Shown: one piece after another, positions 5,105 through 60,530 of the stretch
Numbering within the stretch: the stretch's first letter is position 1
Layout: each line of letters starts with the position of its first letter
Assembly (NCBI GenBank): GCA_947568835.1
Contig: OX387608.1
Coordinates: 15,848,001-15,912,000, forward strand
Direction: 5' to 3'
Source: Protonemura montana
Lineage: Eukaryota; Arthropoda; Insecta; Plecoptera; Nemouridae
DNA length: 64,000 nt
The notes under the pieces: model-generated
Database searches by the model: none
The model's input: only the letters and a program-made list of their open reading frames with translations
What the model was told of the DNA's origin: nothing
Made by a program: the position numbers and the translations under genes

Positions 5105-18091
<12,987 letters not shown>

Positions 18092-20065: not shown

Positions 20066-20671
20066 GTTATTTTGTTTTGTTTCGTAGACTGTGTTTGTTT
20101 CTTTGTACGGTGAGACTCGCTGTGTACGGGAACTACGGAGTAGAATTGCACATTTGAAACCGTGGAACTAAAGATACAAGAAAACATCTTTCATGATGAA
20201 TCTAGTTGCATTTAAGTTGAAACTGAACCAGTTATGAACCAGAAATGGGGCGAGGCACCAAATCTATGGATTTATTTAAAAAACATGAGAGTTAAAAATG
20301 GGTGATATTTGACCCAAACCTGGTAAATGGTAATTACTGTGTAATATTTATTCCATTTTTATAAACCAGGAAGACTAACCAAATAATTAATCGAGTTTTA
20401 ATATATTTAATTTTAATTCAGACAAATGTATGCTTTACTGATTTAAATATTTGCTCAATGTATGCTTTTGAAACAACAACATTTTTATTTGGGGGTTATA
20501 ACCATTATAACATGGAGGTCCACTATGCTTATATTTATAAGATACTTGATACTTATTAATACAAGCTTAATGGATCTCTATGAAAAAAACACCACCTTGG
20601 TGCACCTTGGTGGCTTTGAAATTTGAACATTTGCCGTGTGATTTCTTTTCTTTTGACTGAAGCAATTAATC
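20066..20671. other. Intergenic interval upstream of FCF1
   Basis: AT-rich, with no repeat or coding feature that I recognise. It must contain the FCF1 promoter if that gene is transcribed independently. Confidence 0.4.
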
Positions 20672-21280
20672 ATGGCTCGAATAAAATCTAAGCGCAGCAA
20701 AGTAATGGCAAAATTTGCTGTCATGAAGAAAATGATCAAGCCAAATGACTCGAGAATTAAACCGTCGCAGGCTCAAATCAACCGACTAAAAAAGAAAGAG
20801 GAAGAAAAGATTAAGGCAGTGACAGCACCTAAGACATCTTCCGTAATGTTCCTTGAATACAACACACAGCTGGGTCCTCCATACCATATTATAGTAGACA
20901 CCAACTTCATCAACTTCTCCATCAAATATAAACTAGATATCTTCCAGAGTATGATGGACTGTATGTATGCCAAGTGCATCCCGTACATCAGTGATTGTGT
21001 CATTGGTGAACTTGAAAAACTTGGAAGCAAATACAATGTAGCTCTGAAGATTTGTAAAGATCCTCGATTCGAACGTCTTCCCTGCATGCACAGAGGAACG
21101 TACGCCGATGACTGCATTTTGGAACGTGTTCGTCAGCACAAATGCTTCATTGTCGCCACAAACGATGTGGTTCTGAAACGACGTGTCAGGAAAATACCGG
21201 GTATTCCAATCATGTATATAGCTCGACACAAATTCACGATAGAACGGATGCCCGAGGCTTACGGTGCCCCAAGAAGTTGA
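20672..21280 (+). CDS. FCF1: rRNA-processing protein FCF1 (intronless)
   Basis: A single open frame of 202 residues, close to the family length (human 198). FCF1 is a PIN-domain component of the small-subunit processome needed for early 18S pre-rRNA cleavages in the nucleolus. Family blocks are strong: [19 protein letters not shown] (first PIN acidic residue in VDTN), [35 protein letters not shown] and the C-terminal [11 protein letters not shown]. The lysine-rich N-terminus is typical but diverged. The usual CDRDLKRR segment reads [11 protein letters not shown], keeping one Asp and losing another. The gene has no intron while every other named gene here has several, and it uses many A/T-ending codons while its neighbours use G/C-ending ones. 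A retrocopy under selection is possible. AATAAA lies shortly after the stop (about 21305). Confidence 0.95.
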
Positions 21281-23731: not shown

Positions 23732-26731
<3,000 letters not shown>

Positions 26732-31307: not shown

Positions 31308-33227
31308 CTAGGTTACGCCCAGACTGGCGTTGAGGAACTGCGTAAAGAGCTGCGCCGTGTGCGTCGTGGCAGGGTGGGCGGTAGCGTACGCCAAGTACTG
31401 GCGGCGCAGACGCGCCAAAGCCGCAGGCGTCGCGGTGGCAACTAGCGTAGTTTCCCCGCGCAGCACCGACTGCACAAATATCAAAGTTCCATCAAGCACC
31501 GAAACGTAGGGCAGTTCTTGCAAGCTTGGAGTAGCTTGGCCAACATTCTAAGCAGGAACGCCGTGATTTTGTTGCAAGGTTGGCACTTACCGAGATGACG
31601 TCTTGAGTGACGCGATCGAGGTCGTAGAGGAAGTTTGAGGCCTGCACCGGAGTCTGAAAGCAAACCAGTAAAACCAAGCAGTGTAGCCAACCAAAAAGAC
31701 GGCTGGAGCAAGAATAAATCGTCAGTGTTATCAGTCCAAGAGAGCCATGCCAAGCAATTCCATAAAACAACACAAACCATCCAATCAAAGTTTAGACGCA
31801 CTATTAAAAAATTGTTATTATACAAAGGTTTTTATAATATTGACGAATTTTATGAACGAGACATGAATGATTGGACAAAGATGTGACTTTTGTTACTTTA
31901 GTATTTCACATGACTATCTTAGTATTTGAACATTATGCTTTGACTTAGTTTTTTGCAATTTATTTTTAATTTTGACGAGTCCAAATCCTTTTACTCTTTG
32001 AATGTAAGCCCTGTGATTATGGAGAAATAAAGATACAATACAAAAATCAGTGGAATGACAAGTTGTTGCTGTAACAAATTAGTTTTGTGTCTAGGAATGC
32101 AAAAAATGTCTGTCCACAATAAAGTTTTCCTTTTTTCCTCAATATGACAGCTAACTTGGGTGGATTCAAACACCTTTGCAAGTAAAAACCAGAATGCAAA
32201 AAGCAGTGAATGTTGGCAGCCTCTTTCATCACTAAACTCTCTAATTTGTCTTACATTCTGTGTTGACTTATTTGGGGTCGGTGCTTCTGCGGCGAGGGCG
32301 GCTGCAATTTTGGCCAACGGCAGCTCGTCGTCGGGCAGCGTTGAGAAAAGGGGCATGTCCCAACGACAGCGTCCGTCTGGAGCCTCGAATCGGGTTGTCA
32401 AAGCGTCAAACACCTGCAAGTATGCACTTGTCACTGACGCCTGAACTCACATTGGCTCGAATTAACATTGTATTGCTGTGAATTCAGCTTCAGTGTACGT
32501 CGGAAAGATGACCATTAACAGTGAATTTCAGGAGCTTCCAGTTATAGGCTGCTACGCGATTGTACCTGAGCAGATCCACACTACGGAAAACTGCTCGTTT
32601 ACTAACCTGTCGCGTGTATCCACAAGTGTTAACCTCGTTTCGTTCCCAGGCCTGCTGCTCGGAAATCTCGCAGTGGACCGTGCATTGTGGGGTCTTGCTT
32701 AGCTTGGTCATACAGTACAGTTCATAGCGGTACCCTAACAAATAACAATACAGAAGAAATGAGGTAGGTAGGTAGGTGCTTGGAATAACATGTAACCCAA
32801 CAATAGACCTATCCCAGCAACTCAAGCTCCTATCACTACCACTGGAAAGTTATTGAAAGTAAAATAAGCACAAAAAAGGTTCAAACCTTTGATGTAGTTG
32901 GCAGCGTCAACAATTACTATGTCTTTGCGGTTGATCAATCTGCAACAAATAATAATTGACACCAAGATGCTAATAGATTTCACAATGAAAATAAAAATTG
33001 TCACAGCATTCTCACCGATTAGCTTCGGCTTTTAATAATGCACGAGTCTGCTTTTCCTTAGTTGAGTCAAGAAACAGTTTGTTCTTATCGATACCAGCTT
33101 CGATGATAGTTGCATTTTCGCTGACCACATGCACTTGATCCCCTCGTTCCTCGAAGAATTGTCTGAGCTCCTTGGTTCGTGTTGATTTTCCACTGCAAGG
33201 TATTCCTGTTAACAGGATTACAGGCAT
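31308..33227 (-). CDS. KTI12: KTI12 homolog, Elongator-associated P-loop protein (6 exons)
   Basis: Minus-strand exons 33227-33016, 32939-32887, 32734-32607, 32413-32255, 31653-31591 and 31469-31308 join in frame to 258 residues. KTI12 is a P-loop ATPase that binds tRNA and supports Elongator in modifying wobble uridine. The P-loop is GIPCSGKST at residues 8-16. Family blocks follow: DIVIVDAANYIKG, YRYELYCMTKLSKTPQC, AWERN, VFDALTTRFEAPDGRCRWD, PLF, FLYDLDRVTQDVIS and the C-terminal LARLRRQYLAYATAHP. The protein is shorter than human (354) because the central low-complexity insert is absent. The donor of exon 2 (GTTTGA) is weak but is the only one that keeps the frame. It converges with NACA. 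Confidence 0.93.
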
Positions 33228-33309
33228 TTTGATTTAATCTTGACCGTTGCTAGCTTAATTTGGTAACTACATTTAAATGTAAAATATAGGTTAGGTAATC
33301 AAGTAGGAA

Positions 33310-34165
33310 CCCAAGAACGACGTGGTCTCAACCAGACCCCAACCAGCGGCATATTCAGATTGAAAATGGCGGATATTATATTACCCTTAAAGAGGCTACA
33401 ATCAAGAATTCTATGAATAGTTGAACATGCTAAACAGATTTTAAAAATCAACTGTATTTACCAAAATAAAATCGTGTCAAATTAAAGAAATCTTGGAAAA
33501 TGATAAAAACATAAAAGGTATTTTGAGGTAGAAGGAAATTTTGTGCGCGAATTTCGTAAATGGGTTCAAAAGCATCCAACACCCAACAAAGACACAATTT
33601 CTTGCTACCTTGAGTTACAAAACCGGCTGTAACTACCAAACGAAAACCCGGCGCAACTCAAAAATCTTAGAAAATGATATTACTTTACAGAGGTACCTTC
33701 AGGTGAAAGGAAAATTTGGACCGAATTTTCTGAAGGGGTTAAACGGCATCAAATACCCAACATCAATACGATTTCTTGGGTTATCCACTGCTGTCGCCTG
33801 TATGTATGCAACCCACATTACATGCAAGTACACAGAATTGCGTTGCGTCACGGCGTTGTCACTGCCCGTTTGATTCTACCGTCCCTTGCACCAGAACAGC
33901 TGTTTTAGATGTACCGTTACGTGAGGAGAGGAAAAGTCTTGGACCTACTGCAGACGAAAATAATTTCACATATTTTTATCTTTTGTTTGTTTTTTTAAAT
34001 AATTGTACTAGTTATCAATGAAATCACTAATCATGCTTAATTACAAAGTTTACAAACCTTCAAATACCTTGAGGTAAAAGGAAAATTTGGGCCGGATTTT
34101 CTGAAGGGGTTAAACGGAATCCATTATCAAACAAAAAGAAGAGTGTTTGGATACAAAACCGGCTG
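33310..34165 (+). repeat. Dispersed repeat family C, copy 1
   Basis: It begins near CCAGACCCCAACCAGCGGCA, then TATTCAGATTGAAAATGGCG. About 165-bp subunits recur inside it, each with CTGTAACTACCAAACGAAAA then CCCGGCGCAACTCAAAAATC and AATTTTCTGAAGGGGTTAAA. The same blocks recur at 43130-44850 (inverted) and 62940-64000 (same orientation). No coding region is recognised. Confidence 0.75.
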
Positions 34166-34900
34166 TGATCTCACGAGGACCGGTGTTTCCAACACGTCAA
34201 ACCGTTCGATAGTCACCCATCCCATACCTGACCCAGCGCAGTGTTGCTTAACTTGCATCCCTCCAACCTCTCTCCCGAACAGAACTGGTCATGTATATGA
34301 TGGTCACCCATCCAATATCTGACCCAGCGCAGTGTTGCTTAACTTTCATCCCTCCAACCTCTCTCCCGAACAGAACTGGTCATGTGTATGATGGTCACCC
34401 ATCCAATACCGGACCCAGCGCAGTGTTGCTTAACTTTCATCCCTCCAACCTCTCTCCCGAACAGAACTGGTCATGTGTATGATGGTCACCCATCTAATAC
34501 TTGACCTAGCGCAGTGTTTCTTAACTTTCATCCCTCCAACCTCTCTCCCAAACAGAACTGGTCATGTGTATGATGGTCACCCATTCAATACCTGACCCAG
34601 CGCAGTGTTGCTTAACTTTCATCCCTCCAACCTCTCTCCCGAACAGAACTGGTCATGTGTATGATGGTCACCCATCTAATACTTGACCTAGCGCAGTGTT
34701 TCTTAACTTTCATCCCTCCAACCTCTCTCCCAAACAGAACTGGTCATGTGTATGATGGTCACCCATTCAATACCTGACCCAGCGCAGTGTTGCTTAACTT
34801 TCATCCCTCCAACCTCTCTCCCGAACAGAACTGGTCATGTGTATGATGGTCACCCATCCAATACCTGACCCAGTGCAGTGTTGCTTAACTTCGGTGATCC
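34166..34900 (-). repeat. Tandem array of eight 91-bp 5S-like SINE head units
   Basis: The landmark GTGTTGCTTAAC (or its GTGTTTCTTAAC variant) occurs at 34241, 34332, 34423, 34514, 34605, 34696, 34787 and 34878, exactly 91 bases apart each time. Read on the minus strand each unit runs AAGTTAAGCAACACTGCGCT, GGTATTGGATGGGTGACCAT and CAGTTCTGTTCGGGAGAGAG. It thus contains the 5S A-box-like and C-box-like elements. Variants alternate (TTGACCTAGCGCAGTGTTTC in units 4 and 6), suggesting a 182-bp higher-order step. The SINE body is absent. The SINE 5' end (ACCGGTGTTTCCAACACG) is at 34178. Confidence 0.95.
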
Positions 34901-36742
34901 CAGTGAAGGGCCCTCTTAACTGATACTAACTGATAATGAAACGATTTTAATCTGCAGAATTTGACATTTTAGCCCCCTCTCCCCTCCCTCCAATAATTGA
35001 GTGATATTATTAGTTTGAACAGCTGTTCAGCCACTGGACCAACTTGTCTCTAATAGAACTGTTGCAGTTCTTAATTCACCAAAGCGATCTTCAGGAAAAC
35101 ACCGTGCATTGTTTAATTATTGACGCTTTTTGCCGCAGATAACAAATCGTCATATTCTCCCCCTGGTGGTGCAATTAGGTAAGCAATTAGCAACTTATGC
35201 AATTAATTGATTGAGTATTGGTGTTTTACGACGCAAGTTATTACAACAGGGTGTGAATGGCGGGTCTTGGCTTGGGTGAATGAAAGACGACAGCCAAGAC
35301 GCTAGCATGACCTTCGGGTCATAGCTCGGACTGATGATTAGTGATATTATGGGGGGAAACCTGAGCTAACAAACTAGGAACTGTCAAGATTTGCTGGAGA
35401 CTAACGGGTCTATAGAGCAACATTTGATACAAAATTGCGGCACCCAAAAAAAAACCCTGCGAAGTTCCCTAGTTACGTCCGAGTACTGTCTCGATGGAAT
35501 GTGTATGAAGAGAATCATAACATGACAGTATTTTCTCCCTCGCACACCGCAGCTGGGGCTAGGCTCTGTCTCTGTCTAGCCCGTGGGACGGAAGGAAAAC
35601 ACTTCTGTCATTTGCCTTCACTTTTTAGACAATATCTAGACGTATACGTTATGCATTGCTAGATCCCTTATACCGTGCAAATATAGTGTTCATGCCGATG
35701 ACAATTCGCCGAGTTAAATTACTGCACTAAAAGTTATTAATAATAAGTAATAATTGTACAATTACATGAATGTGCTGCCACTAAAACTGAGCATCGAAGC
35801 ATTTGACAACTGAAATTCTAAAATGACATGTACATCTCAGACAATGTTTTCTCCCCCCGGCAATGTAAGTATATGCAGATCAAACAGTGTCTAGCATTTT
35901 TTCAGTGCCCAAGCTTTTAGAAGGTAATATCTGTGGTAATATTAAAATTAATCATTTATTTAAAACAAGATGCCCGGCCCCAGAGAGAACACAAAATTAT
36001 TCCAGAAATTGAATTCAATCTGTTCACATTCCTGGGCAATAGTCGTGGATATTAAAGTACTTTAGGTTATTATTCAACGATTTTATTGCGTACGACAAAT
36101 GCTGATTGCCTTGAATTCGCTGGATGGTTTCAAAGTACTACGGCTAATTGCTTGGGAGTAGGGGAGGTAGTCCCCATCCCTCCTCAGCGCACCGTGCACA
36201 AGCCACAGCGCAGGTCATTCTACCGAACTTTGGCGAGCATTGCAGACGTGAGCCTCGAGACAGCCCGGATTTGGCCAGCACTGATCGGCAGCGAATTTGC
36301 AGAGAAATAGCTCAAGAAGATTACCGATGGCGAATTAAACCGTGAGTAATGAAACATATTACTAACTATATGTAGGAAGCAGACCTGGGCGAGACATTTT
36401 GCGAGTGCAACGACTTGCTACCCGAATACACGTTTATCTGCAAATTTAACTGTATTCTTCAGCGTCAACTAGACCATGCTTTCATATGAAAAAGTATTGC
36501 AATTTGATTCAATATTTTGATACTAGACCAACGATGGCAAGGTTTTAAACTAGGTAGTGTCTTTTAACGTTATTACCACTCTATAGGGTTGGAATGTCAT
36601 CGACCCATGAGGTGCAGACCGATGCTAGCAGCTACAGATTGTGCGATATTACATTTTGAAGTGAAATTAAAAGTAGACAAAGTATATCAGAATCGCATGC
36701 AAGCTTCGTGCAGAATCTGTTGGTGAATATTGGTAACACACC
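34901..36742. other. Interval with a second SINE type, otherwise no recognised feature
   Basis: At about 35205-35350 (minus strand) a SINE-like copy ends in TTGCGTCGTAAAACACCAAT plus ACTCAATCAAT. Its 3' tail closely matches the 5S-SINE tail (TGCGTCGTTAAACACCA), but its body is different. The rest is AT-rich without a gene I can support. Confidence 0.4.
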
Positions 36743-38178: not shown

Positions 38179-38719
38179 GAACGGTTTGGCGTGTTGGAAA
38201 CACCGGTTCTCGTTAGATCACTGAAGTTAAGCAACACTGTGCTGGGTCAGGTATTGGTTGGGTGACCATCATACACATGACATGACCTGTTCTGTTCGGG
38301 AGAGAGGTTGGAGGGATGAAAGTTAAGCAACACTGCGCTGAGTCGACAAGTATTGGATGGGTGACCATCATACACACGACCAGTTTCGTTCGGGAGAGAG
38401 GTTGGAGGGATGAAAGTTAGTACAGCAACTTCACTCGCCTTGCTTATCAACCTCTCGACAGCATGGATTTATGGAGGAATCCTGCTGTTCGAGTTGTACC
38501 GTCCTTCGGAAGGGACGTTAAGCCGGTGGTCCCCTTATTGCTCTTCGACCTCTTGGTGCTACGTGCCGGCACCGGGTTTCCCCTCCTCCCTTCTAGGCTA
38601 AGTTAGGTTCATCATCATTTATCATCATCATCCACTCATTCACCGACGCCATTAGACCAGTGCCGCATGGCCAGATGTCAAAACAGTGCGTCGTTAAACA
38701 CCACAAATAGTAATAAATA
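38179..38719 (+). mobile_element. Complete 5S-SINE with two head units and target-site duplications
   Basis: The copy is flanked by the 17-bp direct repeat ATCAAAGCATGTCAATC at 38162-38178 and 38720-38736. Two head units (GAAGTTAAGCAACACTGTGC and GAAAGTTAAGCAACACTGCG) lie about 91 bases apart. They are followed by the body (AAGGGACGTTAAGCCGGTGG) and the tail (GTGCGTCGTTAAACACCACA then AATAGTAATAAATA). Intact duplications around a two-headed copy indicate that it inserted as a two-headed unit. Confidence 0.92.
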
Positions 38720-40355: not shown

Positions 40356-41520
40356 CGATGCGGTCCCTGCCACGCTGTCTGCTGAACAAGGTCCACACTG
40401 CGGTCCCTGCCAGGCCACGCTGTCTGCTGAACGAGGTCCACACTGCGGTCCCTGCCAGGCCACGCTGTCAGCTGAACGAGGGCCACACTGCGGTCCCTGC
40501 CGGGCCACGCTGTCTGCTGAACGAGGGCCACACTGCGGTCCCTGCCAGGCCACGCTGTCTGCTGAACGAGGGCCACACTGCGGTCCCTGCCAGGCCACGC
40601 TGTCTGCTGAACGAGGGCCACACTGCGGTCCCTGCCGGGCCACGCTGTCTGCTGAACGTGGGCCACACTGCGGTCCCTGCCAGGCCACGCTGTCTGCTGA
40701 ACGTGGGCCACACTGCAGTCCCTGCCAGGCCACGCTGTCTACTGAACGAGGTCCACACTGCGGTCCCTGCCAGCCCACGCTGTCTGCTGAACGAGGACCA
40801 CATTGCGGTCCACACTGCGGTCCCTGCCGGGCCACGCTGTCTGCTGAACGTGGGCCACACTGCGGTCCCTGCCAGGCCACGCTGTCTGCTGAACGAGGGC
40901 CACATTGCGGTCCCTGCCAGGCCACGCTGTCTGCTGAACGAGGTCCACACGGCGGTCCCTTCCAGGCCACGCTGTCTGCTGAACGAGGTCCACACTGCGG
41001 TCCCTTCCAGGCCACACTGCGGTCCCTGCCAGGCCACACTGCCGTCCCTGCCGGGCCACGCTGTCTGCTGAACGAGGGCCACACTGCGGTCCCTGCCAGG
41101 CCACACTGTCTGCTGAACGTGGTCCACACTGCGGTCCACACTGCGGTCCACACTGCGGTCCCTGCCGGGCCACGCTGTCTGCTGAACGAGGTCCATACTG
41201 CGGTCCCTGCCAGGCCACGCTGTCTGCTGAACGTGGTCCACACTGCGGTCCCTGCCAGGCCACGCTGTCTGCTGAACGTGGGCCACACTGCGGTCCCTGC
41301 CAGGCCACGCTGTCTGCTGAACGTGGTCCATACTGCGGTCCGTGCCAGGCCACGCTGTCTGCTGAACGTGGTCCACACTGCGGTCCCTGCCGGGCCACGC
41401 TGTCTACTAAACGTGGTCCACACTGCGGTCCCTGCCGGGCCACGCTGTCTACTGAACGTGGTCCACACTGCGGTCCCTGCCGGGCCACGCTGTCTACTGA
41501 ACGTGGTCCACACTGCGGTG
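40356..41520. repeat. 45-bp minisatellite, about 26 units
   Basis: The unit is close to GGTCCACACTGCGGTCCCTG then CCAGGCCACGCTGTCTGCTG then AACGA. Because 45 is divisible by three, the array is open in five of six frames, for example HCGPCQATLSAERGP on the plus strand and RQRGLAGTAVWTTFS on the minus. Variation is mostly A/G-type at a few fixed positions. Local 12-bp duplications (CACTGCGGTCCA) occur around 40800 and 41130. A coding role cannot be excluded, but no start, splice or homology evidence supports one frame over the others. Confidence 0.95.
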
Positions 41521-53539: not shown

Positions 53540-55910
53540 ATGCTTAATCAGGAGCCCACGAGAATAGCAGTAACGCAACAGCATGTCACTTCCTCCTCAA
53601 TTGACAATGTCATCACAAACTGTCAAAATGTAAATCTTACAGCTAATATTGACATTGGTCTCTCAGACCATATGGCCCAATTAGTTTATATCGAGACACA
53701 TGTAGACCCAGGTACCACCAAAAACCCTGGCAGGAAAAAAAAGTATTCTACTAGGCGCATATTTGGGCAAAAACAAATCGATGCCTCCAATTAATGCTAA
53801 GTGAAATTAACTGGGATAAACTATACGCATTCACAGACTTGAACAAGGCATTTAATTACTTTCATAAATTATTCTTGCTGTGTTTTGGAAAAAACTTCCC
53901 ATTGCAGACCCATCTAATTAAAGAAAATCCTGCGAAGAAACATCGGTTGAACCTGGAACTAACCGCCCTGTCACATAAAGTGAAGCAACTGTACCAAAGG
54001 TACAGAGCGACCATGAGTGAGCACGACAATGTTAAGTACAAAGATCTTAAAAAGCTTTATCACCTCGAAATTCGACGTGAAGTAAAACAGGCCAACATAA
54101 ATTGCATTAAGACAGCGACCAACAAAGGCAAAGCAGCGTGGAATATTATTAACAAATTCAAAAAATGTTCATCGTCAACTCCAATTAATTTAAATCATAA
54201 TGGCTATTTAATTAATTCAGGAAGTGAGATAGCAGATATCTTTAATGATCATTTTAAAAATACAGTCATTACAGACTCGGGCATAAAAGTGACACAAGGG
54301 CTAACCCCTGGCCCAACTTTTTCCGAACCGGCTAACTCCATCTTTTTGAAGCCTATCGATGGGAAGGAGTATTATGATATCATGATCAAAATCACAAAAA
54401 AAAATCTGCAGGACATGACGGAGTCCCGGCCAATGTACTACGTCACGCATCTGTTCACCTAATGATGCCATTAATTTTCCTAATAAACCTATCATTCGAG
54501 AATGGGACCTTTCCAGAAGCACTTAAAAAACCGATAGTAACACCTACCCCCAAAAGTGGGGATAAAAGAGATGTAGGAAATTACAGACCAATATCCAATC
54601 TATCCGTCTTTTCAAAACTTTTTGAAAACGCATACTGTAATCGATTGCTAAATTACCTCGGTAAGTTTGACTACCTTGACAACTGTCAACACGGTTTCAG
54701 GAAAGAAAGATCAACTACAACAGCTGTTGCGGATCATCTAAGAAAGAAAAGAAAGCTGCATATGGACTGTTCTATGACTATACGAAAGCTTTCGAAAATG
54801 TATCCCATAAGTTGCTCGTGGAAAAACTTAAACACTATGGTATTCGCGGGACTGCAAATGAGTGGATTAAGTCATTCCTTTGTAATCGCACGCAATCTGT
54901 AAAATTAACAGATCAACTGGGCACATATCACTCAAAGGAAGTGAACATAGTAACAGGTGTTCCTCAAGGAGCAACCATCTCCCCCATACTCTTCATTCTC
55001 TTCACTAATGATTTTACAAAGACGATACGTATTGGAAGCTTTACGACGTACGCGGATGACACCACCCATTTGATCGGTGAAAATCCTGAGTCCATCAACT
55101 CCGTATGTAAAGTAGCCATATTATCTCAAATGGCCAAATGGAGTGTGGAAAATGGGTTGAGACTGAACGGAAAAAGAACTGTGCTAATTAATTTTAATCA
55201 AAATGCTAAATTGTCTGAGGGCCACGGCGATGCAATAATCCCCTTACTATACCTAGAGGGGAAAAGTATCCAAGTAAAAAACGAAATTAAATTCCTTGGC
55301 CTCTATATTGACAGTTAACTCAAATGGGACACGCATATCAACTAAACTGACCTGTTAGTTTCTTCAGGATGCTTTCTCGTTCAGAGAATCACAAAAACAT
55401 GTGACTTTGACTCGGCTACGTCTGTCTACTTTGCCTATGTCCACTCAAGACTTAGCTATGGCATTGTCCTGTGGGGCCACTCACAGTCAGTATCTAAACT
55501 GTTCATACTTCAAAAACGAGCTGTTAAGAGCCTGGCTAGGGTGAGTTATGACCCAAACACACCAGGAACGTTCTATAAGGACTCGTGCAGACCGCTATTT
55601 GAAAAGTTCAACATCCTACCTCTGCCTAGTCTGTACCTATACAATATTATCATGTATGCAACTAATAACAAAGAAGTAGCAATACAAGTGGAAAGACATG
55701 ATCACAGGTTGAGAGGTAGTAATGAAACTACCCTGCTGAAAATTCTTAGCAAGATCTTGCAAGATCTTGCAAGATCTTGGCAAGATCTTGGCAAGAAGCA
55801 AGATATCACTAAATATCAGTCCATTAATTGCATCGAGAATTGTTATTTATTGAACATAGGAAGAGTTTACTTTGTAGGCTCATCCAAAAGACAGAGAAAA
55901 TGGACATGAT
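53540..55910 (+). mobile_element. 5'-truncated, frameshifted LINE (endonuclease end plus reverse transcriptase)
   Basis: In order: an endonuclease C-terminal piece (VTSSSIDNVITN, GLSDHMAQLV); a linker (KGKAAWNIINKFKKC); and the RT motifs NYRPISNLSVFSKLFEN, CQHGFRKERSTTTAV, YTKAFENVSHKLLVEKL, GVPQGATISPILFILF and catalytic YADD at 55049-55060. The C-terminal part (SYDPNTPGTFYKDSCRPLF) ends near 55909. Shifts occur around 53793, 54460 and 54760, and stops around 55316, so it is inactive. The architecture fits the Jockey/CR1-like group. At 55748-55795 GCAAGATCTT is repeated several times. Confidence 0.85.
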
Positions 55911-56227: not shown

Positions 56228-56475
56228 CCTTGATTACAACAAGATTACCTTGTTATAATCTTGTTATAATCTTGTTATAATCTTGTTATAATCTTGTTAT
56301 AATCTTGTTATAATCTTGTTATAATCTTGTTATAATCTTGTTATAATCTTGTTATAATCTTGTTATAATCTTGTTATAATCTTGTTATCATCTTGTTATC
56401 ATCTTTTTATAATCCTGTTATAATCTTGTTATAATCTTGTTATAATCTTGTTATTTTCTTGTTATTTTCTTGTTC
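56228..56475. repeat. 11-bp satellite (TTATAATCTTG)n
   Basis: About twenty near-identical 11-bp units TTATAATCTTG, degrading at the right end to TTATCATCTTG and TTATTTTCTTG. It follows the LINE 3' segment and could be its amplified tail. Confidence 0.95.
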
Positions 56476-58043: not shown

Positions 58044-58290
58044 GAATCTTCACAACGAACGGTTTGGCGTGTTGGAAACATCGGTTCTCGTGAGATAACC
58101 GACGTTAAGCAACACTGCGCTGGGTCATGTATTGGATGGGTGACCATCATACACATGATCAGTTCTGTTCGGGTTGAGGTTGGAGGAATGAGAGTTAGTA
58201 CAGCAACTTCAATAGCCTTGCTTATCAAATACTCGAATGCATGAATTTAAGGAGGAATCCTGCTGTTCGAGTTGTACCTTCCTAAAAGCT
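58044..58290 (+). mobile_element. 5S-SINE, 3'-truncated copy
   Basis: One head unit (CGGTTTGGCGTGTTGGAAAC, CGACGTTAAGCAACACTGCG, TATTGGATGGGTGACCATCA) and the first part of the body to GTTCGAGTTGTACC. The rest of the body and the tail are missing. Confidence 0.8.
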
Positions 58291-59409: not shown

Positions 59410-60530
59410 AACCATAAAAAAAACGAACCAATTCGTTTAAAAAAAGACGACGTCTTCATTGATTGAGTGTACCAATAGGTACGAAATGAAGCCACAATAA
59501 ACTTTGTAAATAATTGCCAGAACTGGAAACATGTAGCGTTCAAAAGAATTGAAATATACGTAAATGCAGACGTCTATCCCCTCCCTCCCCCCCCTCCCCC
59601 AGCCCATCGCACGATATCGTCACCCTATCCCCATGCATAAATTAGGACAATAGCCAAAGGTAATAATCACTTTGCGCTTACGAGACTACGATTTCGGCTA
59701 TGGCCATTAGCATTGCTCTTATGGAACTAACAATTCGTCCAAGTCAAATAGTAGACGAGCACGTTGCCTCGGCCGGGGAGTGCGTGCACGACCGCACTTT
59801 GACAAATCACCAGCAATTTAACATTGCTCTTATGGGAGAATGGACTCCCGGGAAACAAGGATTGAAACCGAACGGTTTGGCGTGTTGGAAACACCGGTTC
59901 TCGTTGGATCACCGAAGTTAAGCAACACTGCGCTGAGTCAGGTATTGGATGGGTGACCACCATACACATGACCAGTTCTGTTTGGGAGAGAGGTTGGAGG
60001 GATGAAAGTTAGTGCAGCAACTTCACTCGCCTTGCTTATCAGCCTCTCGACAGCATGGATTTGTGGAGGAATCCTATTGTTCGCGTTGTACCGTCCTTCG
60101 GAAGGGACGTTAAGCCGGTGGTCCCCTTGGTGCTCTTCGACAGGAGTACGCTACGTGCCGGCACCGGGCTTCCCGTCTTCCCTTCTAGGCTATGTTAGGT
60201 TCATCATCACCCTCATCGTCATCCACTCATCCACCGACGCCATTAGACCAGTGCCACATGACCAGATGTCAAAACAGTGCGTCGTTAAACACCACAAATC
60301 AATCAATCAACAAGGATTGAAATTTCAAAGTGCATGGGCTGGGGGAGGGGGGGAGGGAGGGGATAGACGTCTGCATTTACGTATATTTCAATTCTTTTGA
60401 ACGCTACATGTTTCCAGTTCTGGCAATTATTTACAAAGTTTATTGTGGCTTCATTTCGTACCTATTGGTACACTCAATCAATGAAGACGTCGTCTTTTTT
60501 TAAACGAATTGGTTCGTTTTTTTTATGGTT
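59410..60530. repeat. Near-perfect 198-bp inverted repeat enclosing a SINE
   Basis: The left arm 59410-59607 and right arm 60334-60530 are reverse complements over their full length; the only difference I find is one base in a C/G run (8 versus 7). Arms begin AACCATAAAAAAAACGAACC and end CTCCCCCAGCCCAT. The 726-bp loop contains the complete SINE at 59868-60308 with its duplications, leaving 271 bp of original loop. No transposase is present. It may be a foldback/MITE element. Confidence 0.95.
59868..60308 (+). mobile_element. Complete 5S-rRNA-derived SINE, reference copy
   Basis: 441 bp, flanked by the 14-bp duplication AACAAGGATTGAAA (59854-59867 and 60309-60322). The head CCGGTTCTCGTTGGATCACC, GAAGTTAAGCAAC and TATTGGATGGGTGACC matches 5S rRNA including the A-box and C-box regions. 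The body has AAGGGACGTTAAGCCGGTGG and GTGCCGGCACCGGG. The tail is GTGCGTCGTTAAACACCACA plus (AATC)n. It has the same length as the copy at 8215-8655. The two-part structure fits a 5S-headed (SINE3-type) SINE with a LINE-derived 3' end. Confidence 0.93.

Follow-up and report, generated by a model that had tools for sequence, protein, structure and literature searches.

The closest known kind of locus to the array described here is the SINE-derived satellite of squamates, the parent in the present case being a 5S-type SINE. In the parts of the squamate report on which we draw, the unit of sSat1-3 is internal to a SINE and, in snakes, comprises the 3' part of the promoter head plus part of the body; arrays contain a few to hundreds of units, with alternating monomer variants in some loci, the number of units varies at some orthologous loci, and chromosome ends are preferred (PMC10702118). 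A terminal unit reaching the SINE terminus is, in the same parts, common to the major types and lacking in minor variants, so that this criterion does not appear absolute (PMC10702118). HaSE3, of the SINE3 class, has a 5S-like head, a body, a tail and, in some copies, target site duplications (TSDs), according to passages of its description (PMC3272025), and excerpts of a report on the TRIMp3 elements Cassandra and Ajax describe a 5S-derived promoter segment in their LTRs (PMC10886601).

We analyzed a window of 64,000 nucleotides from Protonemura montana (contig OX387608.1, positions 15,848,001 to 15,912,000, forward strand), in which eight 5S-like heads at exactly 91-bp spacing, without length drift, with alternating variants and without a SINE body, had been predicted. 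Our results suggested that the locus at 34208-34891 is most probably a young SINE-derived satellite, a block of 91-bp units (U) inside an older dispersed repeat (X), and not a SINE insertion. The predicted spacing was exact: the TTAACTT landmark occurs eight times (34248, 34339, 34430, 34521, 34612, 34703, 34794 and 34885) with all steps exactly 91, and TRF (reporting threshold, score 50) gave a period of 91 at 34208-34891, with 7.5 copies, 94% matches, 0% indels and a score of 1235. The alternation of variants was also borne out, units 2-3 and units 4-5 in sense order showing 0 differences over 182 bp, and blast of the SINE parts confirmed that the body (~290 bp) is absent from the array. What did not hold is the identity of the units as 5S heads, as each contains only the 3' half of the head (47 bp) followed by 44 bp of SINE-specific sequence. 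At the assembly level, the eight-unit array was partly confirmed in this sense. In sense order (minus strand), seven full U units are followed by U nt 1-47 and then by a 43-bp H5; the array is thus permuted, because the first 5S half occurs once, at 34165-34207, after the U units. GATCAC is found at both array edges, the end of H5 included. The parts of the locus are as follows.

33329-36053, no strand assigned: repeat X, which contains the array (blast against L025 and L041-L053; the extent is a minimum)
34208-34891, minus strand: U array, seven full 91-bp units plus U nt 1-47 (TRF, unit alignment, blast of SINE parts)
34801-34891, 34710-34800, 34619-34709 and 34528-34618, minus strand: full U units 1-4 in sense order (unit alignment)
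34437-34527, 34346-34436 and 34255-34345, minus strand: full U units 5-7 in sense order (unit alignment)
34208-34254, minus strand: partial unit, U nt 1-47 (unit alignment, blast)
34165-34207, minus strand: H5, 43 bp, first half of the 5S-like head, ending in GATCAC; placed after the array, permuted
34892-34899, minus strand: left array edge, GATCACCG (sequence)
34619-34800, minus strand: block of units 2-3, equal to the block of units 4-5
34437-34618, minus strand: block of units 4-5, equal to the block of units 2-3

Like the squamate satellites, U lies within SINEs of the same genome (8223-8652, 38179-38708 and 59870-60318), and the array at 34208-34891 has seven full units where at least four in tandem are required. 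In contrast with the major sSat types as the cited parts of that report present them, it adjoins neither a body nor a normally placed head, but a permuted H5. The squamate units are described there as coming from tRNA-derived SINEs of reptiles, whereas the SINE here is 5S-derived with a unit of 91 bp, and arrays are additionally found here at a fixed permuted core inside X and in a second, 92-bp phase, beyond what those parts relate. The family shares with HaSE3, as far as the passages on that element go, a 5S-like head with a body and a tail and the TSDs of some copies; the internal units here are tandem, whereas the word 'tandem' occurs 0 times in the main text of the HaSE3 article (PMC3272025). 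Similar to Cassandra and Ajax in the excerpts used, X is a dispersed repeat with a 5S-derived promoter segment, but its core is permuted. The marks of a TRIMp3 element would be the 5S-like segment in LTRs, a PBS and a 5-bp TSD; no LTR or TSD was found in the fetched copies of X, outside which its termini may lie. A search of the open-access literature gave no report of satellites from 5S-derived SINEs among the matches listed; the birth of a satellite from a SINE takes a form here that is absent from the papers listed, and is ordinary within this genome. Satellites derived from 5S rDNA are reportedly present, to judge by the titles of the reports, in Physalaemus cuvieri and Hoplias malabaricus. 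On the strength of these titles, the 5S-like units are a common feature, whereas every unit here includes SINE-specific sequence.

Complete SINEs of this family consist of H5 (45 bp), U (91 bp), a body of ~290 bp and, as the tail, repeats of AAT or AATC, and those of the window have one or two copies of U. The following copies were identified in the window.

8223-8652, minus strand: complete SINE with one U unit and a TSD-like repeat, TCGTGTCAGAAC (Rfam, blast, TSD scoring)
10959-11352, minus strand: two-unit SINE copy in which H5 was not found (TRF, blast)
38179-38708, plus strand: complete two-unit SINE, TSD of 17 bp (Rfam, blast, TSD scoring)
58057-58283, plus strand: SINE copy with one U unit and a truncated body (Rfam, blast)
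59870-60318, plus strand: complete SINE with one U unit, a TSD-like repeat and 62.7 bits, the best 5S score of the window (Rfam, blast, alignment to RF00001, TSD scoring)

Within the unit, the match to 5S, of which the 3' half is represented, is confined to U nt 1-47, and U nt 48-91 (44 bp) are SINE-specific. When the SINE head was aligned to RF00001, H5 corresponded to about nt 3-49 and U nt 1-47 to about nt 50-96, a segment which we take to hold the Pol III boxes A, IE and C. Thus, the expectation of 5S promoter elements in the units was correct in that the segment at about nt 50-96 is present, and incorrect in that they are not whole heads, 44 of the 91 bp being non-5S SINE sequence. Full-length 5S-like heads were recognized by Rfam (RF00001, gathering score 38) at four SINE copies in the window (48.6-62.7 bits), and no 5S match was obtained in 33000-36000 even at E <= 10, on which ground complete 5S units in the array were rejected. 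Among five fetched loci scanned in the same way, the 92-bp multimers of L042, L043 and L036 gave 5S matches and the single cores of L041 and L049 gave none. In a SINE with a single unit, the 6-bp motif AAGTTA is present at both ends of U, with break points between CG and AAGTTAAGC on the 5S side and between GATGA and AAGTTAGTAC on the SINE side.

In the fetched DNA (40 loci, 13 further loci and the window), we found 18 complete SINEs with n = 1, 1, 2, 2, 3, 3, 3, 4, 4, 5, 5, 6, 6, 9, 10, 10, 12 and 13 units, numbers that are not a random sample because the 40 loci were picked for array or junction matches. TSD scores of at least 9, above the best of 20 shuffles, were observed for 7 of the 18 (6 distinct insertions, n = 1-5), and SINEs with n = 6-13 scored 5-7, about the shuffle level. 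Complete copies have the 5S-like head of the SINE3 class and, in part, its TSDs; TSDs are not applicable to the window array, where there are no SINE ends. Since SINEs with n = 2-5 carry TSDs, retrotransposition also spreads arrays. The longest U run reached 33 units (L020), and at other loci, e.g., L001 and L018, the U array runs into the SINE body. A fragment of a reverse transcriptase (Pfam RVT_1) is located at 54680-55315 of the window.

A search of the assembly (258 Mb, 34 contigs) for similar arrays, proposed together with the original prediction, revealed that they are abundant and that the one at 34208-34891 is not isolated: the U-U junction had 22,945 matches at no more than 1 mismatch, compared with 0 for a control read backwards. 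The fetched DNA contained 43 arrays of 91-bp units with at least 4 units each, and the spacing was exactly 91 in 249 of 262 steps at the fetched loci, a count that missed some motifs (its longest run was 13, against the 33 units of L020). For the best-scored 40 of 2380 candidates, which are not a random sample, 25 of the 40 arrays were located within the terminal tenth of the contig on one side or the other (median distance of the 40 to an end, 1.7 Mb), and the positions of the 40 differed from uniform (KS p 1.5e-10).

Several other arrangements were observed. L036 contains at 133-634, beside a SINE, a tandem array of the head (H5 plus U nt 1-45) with a 92-bp period, and in L006 (1709-2845) H5 with about 5.5 U occurs twice in succession, followed by H5. 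On contig C1, L021-L024 are inverted pairs of U-array SINEs with 2.0-2.7 kb between the bodies, the inner sequence being common to L021, L022, L023, L026, L030 and L031 and not to L024. Arrays as the terminal inverted repeats of a DNA transposon were considered and rejected, as the arm similarity of L024 extends outward; other outer flanks are found repeatedly in L021-L023, L026 and L030, and thus these SINEs look like passengers of larger repeats. No inverted partner of that kind was found within the window for the array at 34208-34891.

Blast and genome matches revealed that both flanks of the window array are parts of X, which is at least 2.7 kb long; its extent is a minimum bounded by the fetched copies, in several of which the similarity continues up to, or close to, the end of the copy. 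We compared 15 copies (the window, L025 and L041-L053). A single permuted core (U nt 1-47, or U47, plus H5) was present in 6 of the 15, multiples of a 92-bp core (4 and 2) in two, and U units together with the core in five, with 2, 5, 7, 7 and 10 U. Two copies were odd, L052 having the core and then 3 U, and L051 having U47 with no detectable H5. Thus, X copies hold 0-10 full U units at one fixed site. The single-core copies could be collapsed arrays, shortened by deletion between direct repeats, or they could preserve an original single core. Mean pairwise identity among 13 of the 15 copies (L051 and L052 were left out for their odd structure, and the minus-strand segments L043, L044, L045, L049, L050 and L053 were 2 bp out of register) was 0.928 for U47, 0.906 for H5, 0.752 for the left flank and 0.712 for the right flank; most copies of X were found with core-containing queries, and the high conservation of the core may therefore be partly due to selection bias. 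The core also differed from other heads at position 30, where C was found in 23 of 25 heads following U47, compared with 4 of 28 others (53 heads with up to 9 mismatches, repeated contexts dropped). The window H5 has this C, and two of the four exceptional heads were in L036, which has 92-bp arrays. This contrast indicated that the core belongs to a lineage separate from that of most current SINE heads and is not accounted for simply by rewriting from SINEs. A section of the X flank itself forms 118-bp tandem arrays at C11:17781733-17785094, at several other contig ends and in L050.

Across the 43 arrays of at least 4 units, the identity of U units was 0.955 inside an array and 0.949 from one array to another. 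As they are about 95% alike, compared with about 71-75% for the flanks of X, the array is either younger than X or has been rewritten since. The unit variants of the window array differ from those of L025, but 7 full units are present at both loci, and unit 5 repeats unit 3 at both, without any difference in the window and with one in L025; independent growth does not predict this common number and repeat. Evidence of change in place was obtained from L021 and L026, whose 300-bp flanks are 0.997/0.987 identical and whose arrays, with 10 and 9 units, are distinguished by a single internal unit, a 4-unit block being repeated in L021; at the same site, L022 (flanks 0.962/0.973) has a different set of unit variants. 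Thus, the exact 182-bp duplication in the window and the one-unit difference between L021 and L026 indicated that the arrays are altered where they lie, at the DNA level, either by unequal exchange or by slippage. We rejected a general higher-order periodicity: the best lag was at least 2 in 17 of 25 arrays of at least 7 units, but the differences between lags were small. We claim block copying only where it is exact or nearly so, namely in the window array and in L021. Unit variants were likewise rejected as tags of origin, being partly shared between loci. Among the fetched sequences (up to 2 mismatches), a 44-bp core of one of the two repeated variants of the window occurred only in the window, and a 49-bp core of the other was also found, exactly, in L037 and L040.

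Based on these patterns, we propose that the process began in a 5S-derived SINE (H5, U and body), in which an internal segment of 91 bp was duplicated in tandem; the AAGTTA at both ends of U likely seeded this first duplication. SINE copies with multiple U would then have retrotransposed, and their U arrays would have been lengthened and shortened in place by unequal exchange at the DNA level or by replication slippage. The 47 bp of 5S sequence common to U and X may have allowed an exchange that brought U units into X, through either gene conversion from a SINE array or the integration of a U circle; the insertion point would be the permuted 5S-like core that most X copies have. Later, the window array would have grown by block duplication, units 2-3 being copied as 4-5, with unequal exchange, not polymerase slippage, as the presumable driving force. 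The original prediction had offered unequal exchange or template slippage during SINE replication; the former appears to be the better proposal, and slippage alone is insufficient because the array has no SINE ends, lies inside X, the copies of which hold 0-10 full U units at that site, and includes an exact two-unit duplication. Circles of tandem repeats, 5S rDNA included, have been reported in human cells (PMC3225859). We tentatively suggest, as a possibility that we would not yet favor, that SINE-derived 91-bp blocks move without retrotransposition, as circles or by conversion, and enter unrelated repeats at any 47-bp 5S-like seed, that of X being a conserved Pol III core. If true, a fragment of the 5S promoter would be a docking site that turns dispersed repeats into satellite arrays. 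The locus bears on the question of how satellites begin, as many stages of a single family coexist in the genome: one-unit SINEs, SINEs of 2-5 units with TSDs, long arrays, and arrays at the fixed site of X, other copies of which have 92-bp multiples or just one core. These stages make it possible to test directly how a mobile element becomes a satellite and what short homology contributes.

Other explanations of the array should also be weighed against this evidence. Tandem arrays are prone to assembly errors, but a collapsed or expanded repeat can hardly be credited here, given the distinct variants in ordered sequence across the units and the same array type at many loci with different flanks. 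Reverse transcription of a SINE, with slippage or jumping of the template, might also have made the array, which would then have been inserted as such: the TSDs of complete SINEs with n = 2-5 indicate that multi-unit templates can retrotranspose, and the junction from U47 to H5 looks as though the 5' end of one template had been left for a second template. We consider this quite unlikely, as the window array is bodiless and is located at one fixed position within X, where the number of units varies from copy to copy, and both its exact two-unit duplication and the one-unit difference within 99.7%/98.7% identical flanks elsewhere represent change after insertion. A somewhat doubtful alternative is that the single 5S-like core is the own Pol III promoter of X, as in TRIMp3 (Cassandra, Ajax), with the U array being secondary noise there. 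It fits the presence of U47 plus H5 at the same site in 14 of the 15 X copies (L052, with its 3 U after the core, included), the identity of the core (0.91-0.93, against 0.71-0.75 in the flanks) and the C at position 30 (23/25 post-U47 heads, 4/28 others). However, ends, LTRs and TSDs of X were not found in the fetched copies, whose similarity runs to or near their ends, and the queries were biased towards copies bearing the core. In addition, 92-bp tandem arrays are present outside X copies (L036), and thus homogenization among 92-bp units explains the conservation of the core too.

The reading originally put forward, in which each unit could bind TFIIIA/TFIIIC within a compact array of internal promoters, was partly supported overall. 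Units retain the 5S segment at about nt 50-96 of RF00001, and TTTT is absent from the consensus of U and H5 and from the window array, so that transcription through the array is possible; in addition, a TTTT starts 6 bp past the end of H5 at the window locus, and the core of X is more conserved than its flanks. It is nevertheless highly unlikely that these are selected, working Pol III promoters that recruit TFIIIA/TFIIIC and drive transcription or insulate chromatin. The two halves of U diverge equally: in the 456 units from the fetched DNA that are exactly 91 bp long, the difference from the consensus was 0.0296 (5S half) and 0.0251 (SINE half). This gives no indication that the promoter part is under selection, which was rejected for the 5S half for this reason. 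Furthermore, L021 and L022 have different unit variants between 0.96-0.97 identical flanks, TTTT does not follow H5 in L025 and L041, and Rfam recognizes neither the window array nor the single cores of L041 and L049 as 5S. Judging from sequence, each unit could bind TFIIIA, any such effect would probably be incidental, and the promoters of the U units do not seem to be kept for use. The array has the appearance of a nascent satellite and not of a dedicated promoter device, and evenly spaced 5S-like boxes need not mean a regulatory device.

Other tandem repeats were detected in the window by TRF, including a 103-bp array at 11797-12277 (4.7 copies, perhaps element-derived, with a AATAAATAAATA run in its unit), a 45-bp minisatellite at 40369-41519 (16.8 and 8.3 copies, several frames open), a 49-bp array at 10135-10442 (6.3 copies) and an 11-bp array at 56249-56474 (20.5 copies). 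Exon-like frames of a cullin gene extend over 8674-17538 (Pfam Cullin at 8674-9018 and 13865-14197, Cullin_Nedd8 at 17074-17538), and the two-unit SINE copy at 10959-11352 lies between them. Pfam also identified Fcf1 at 20657-21277 and an HYPK-type UBA at 26231-26656, and ARAGORN predicted a tRNA gene (Ala) at 12888-12961, which was matched by Rfam tRNA as well.
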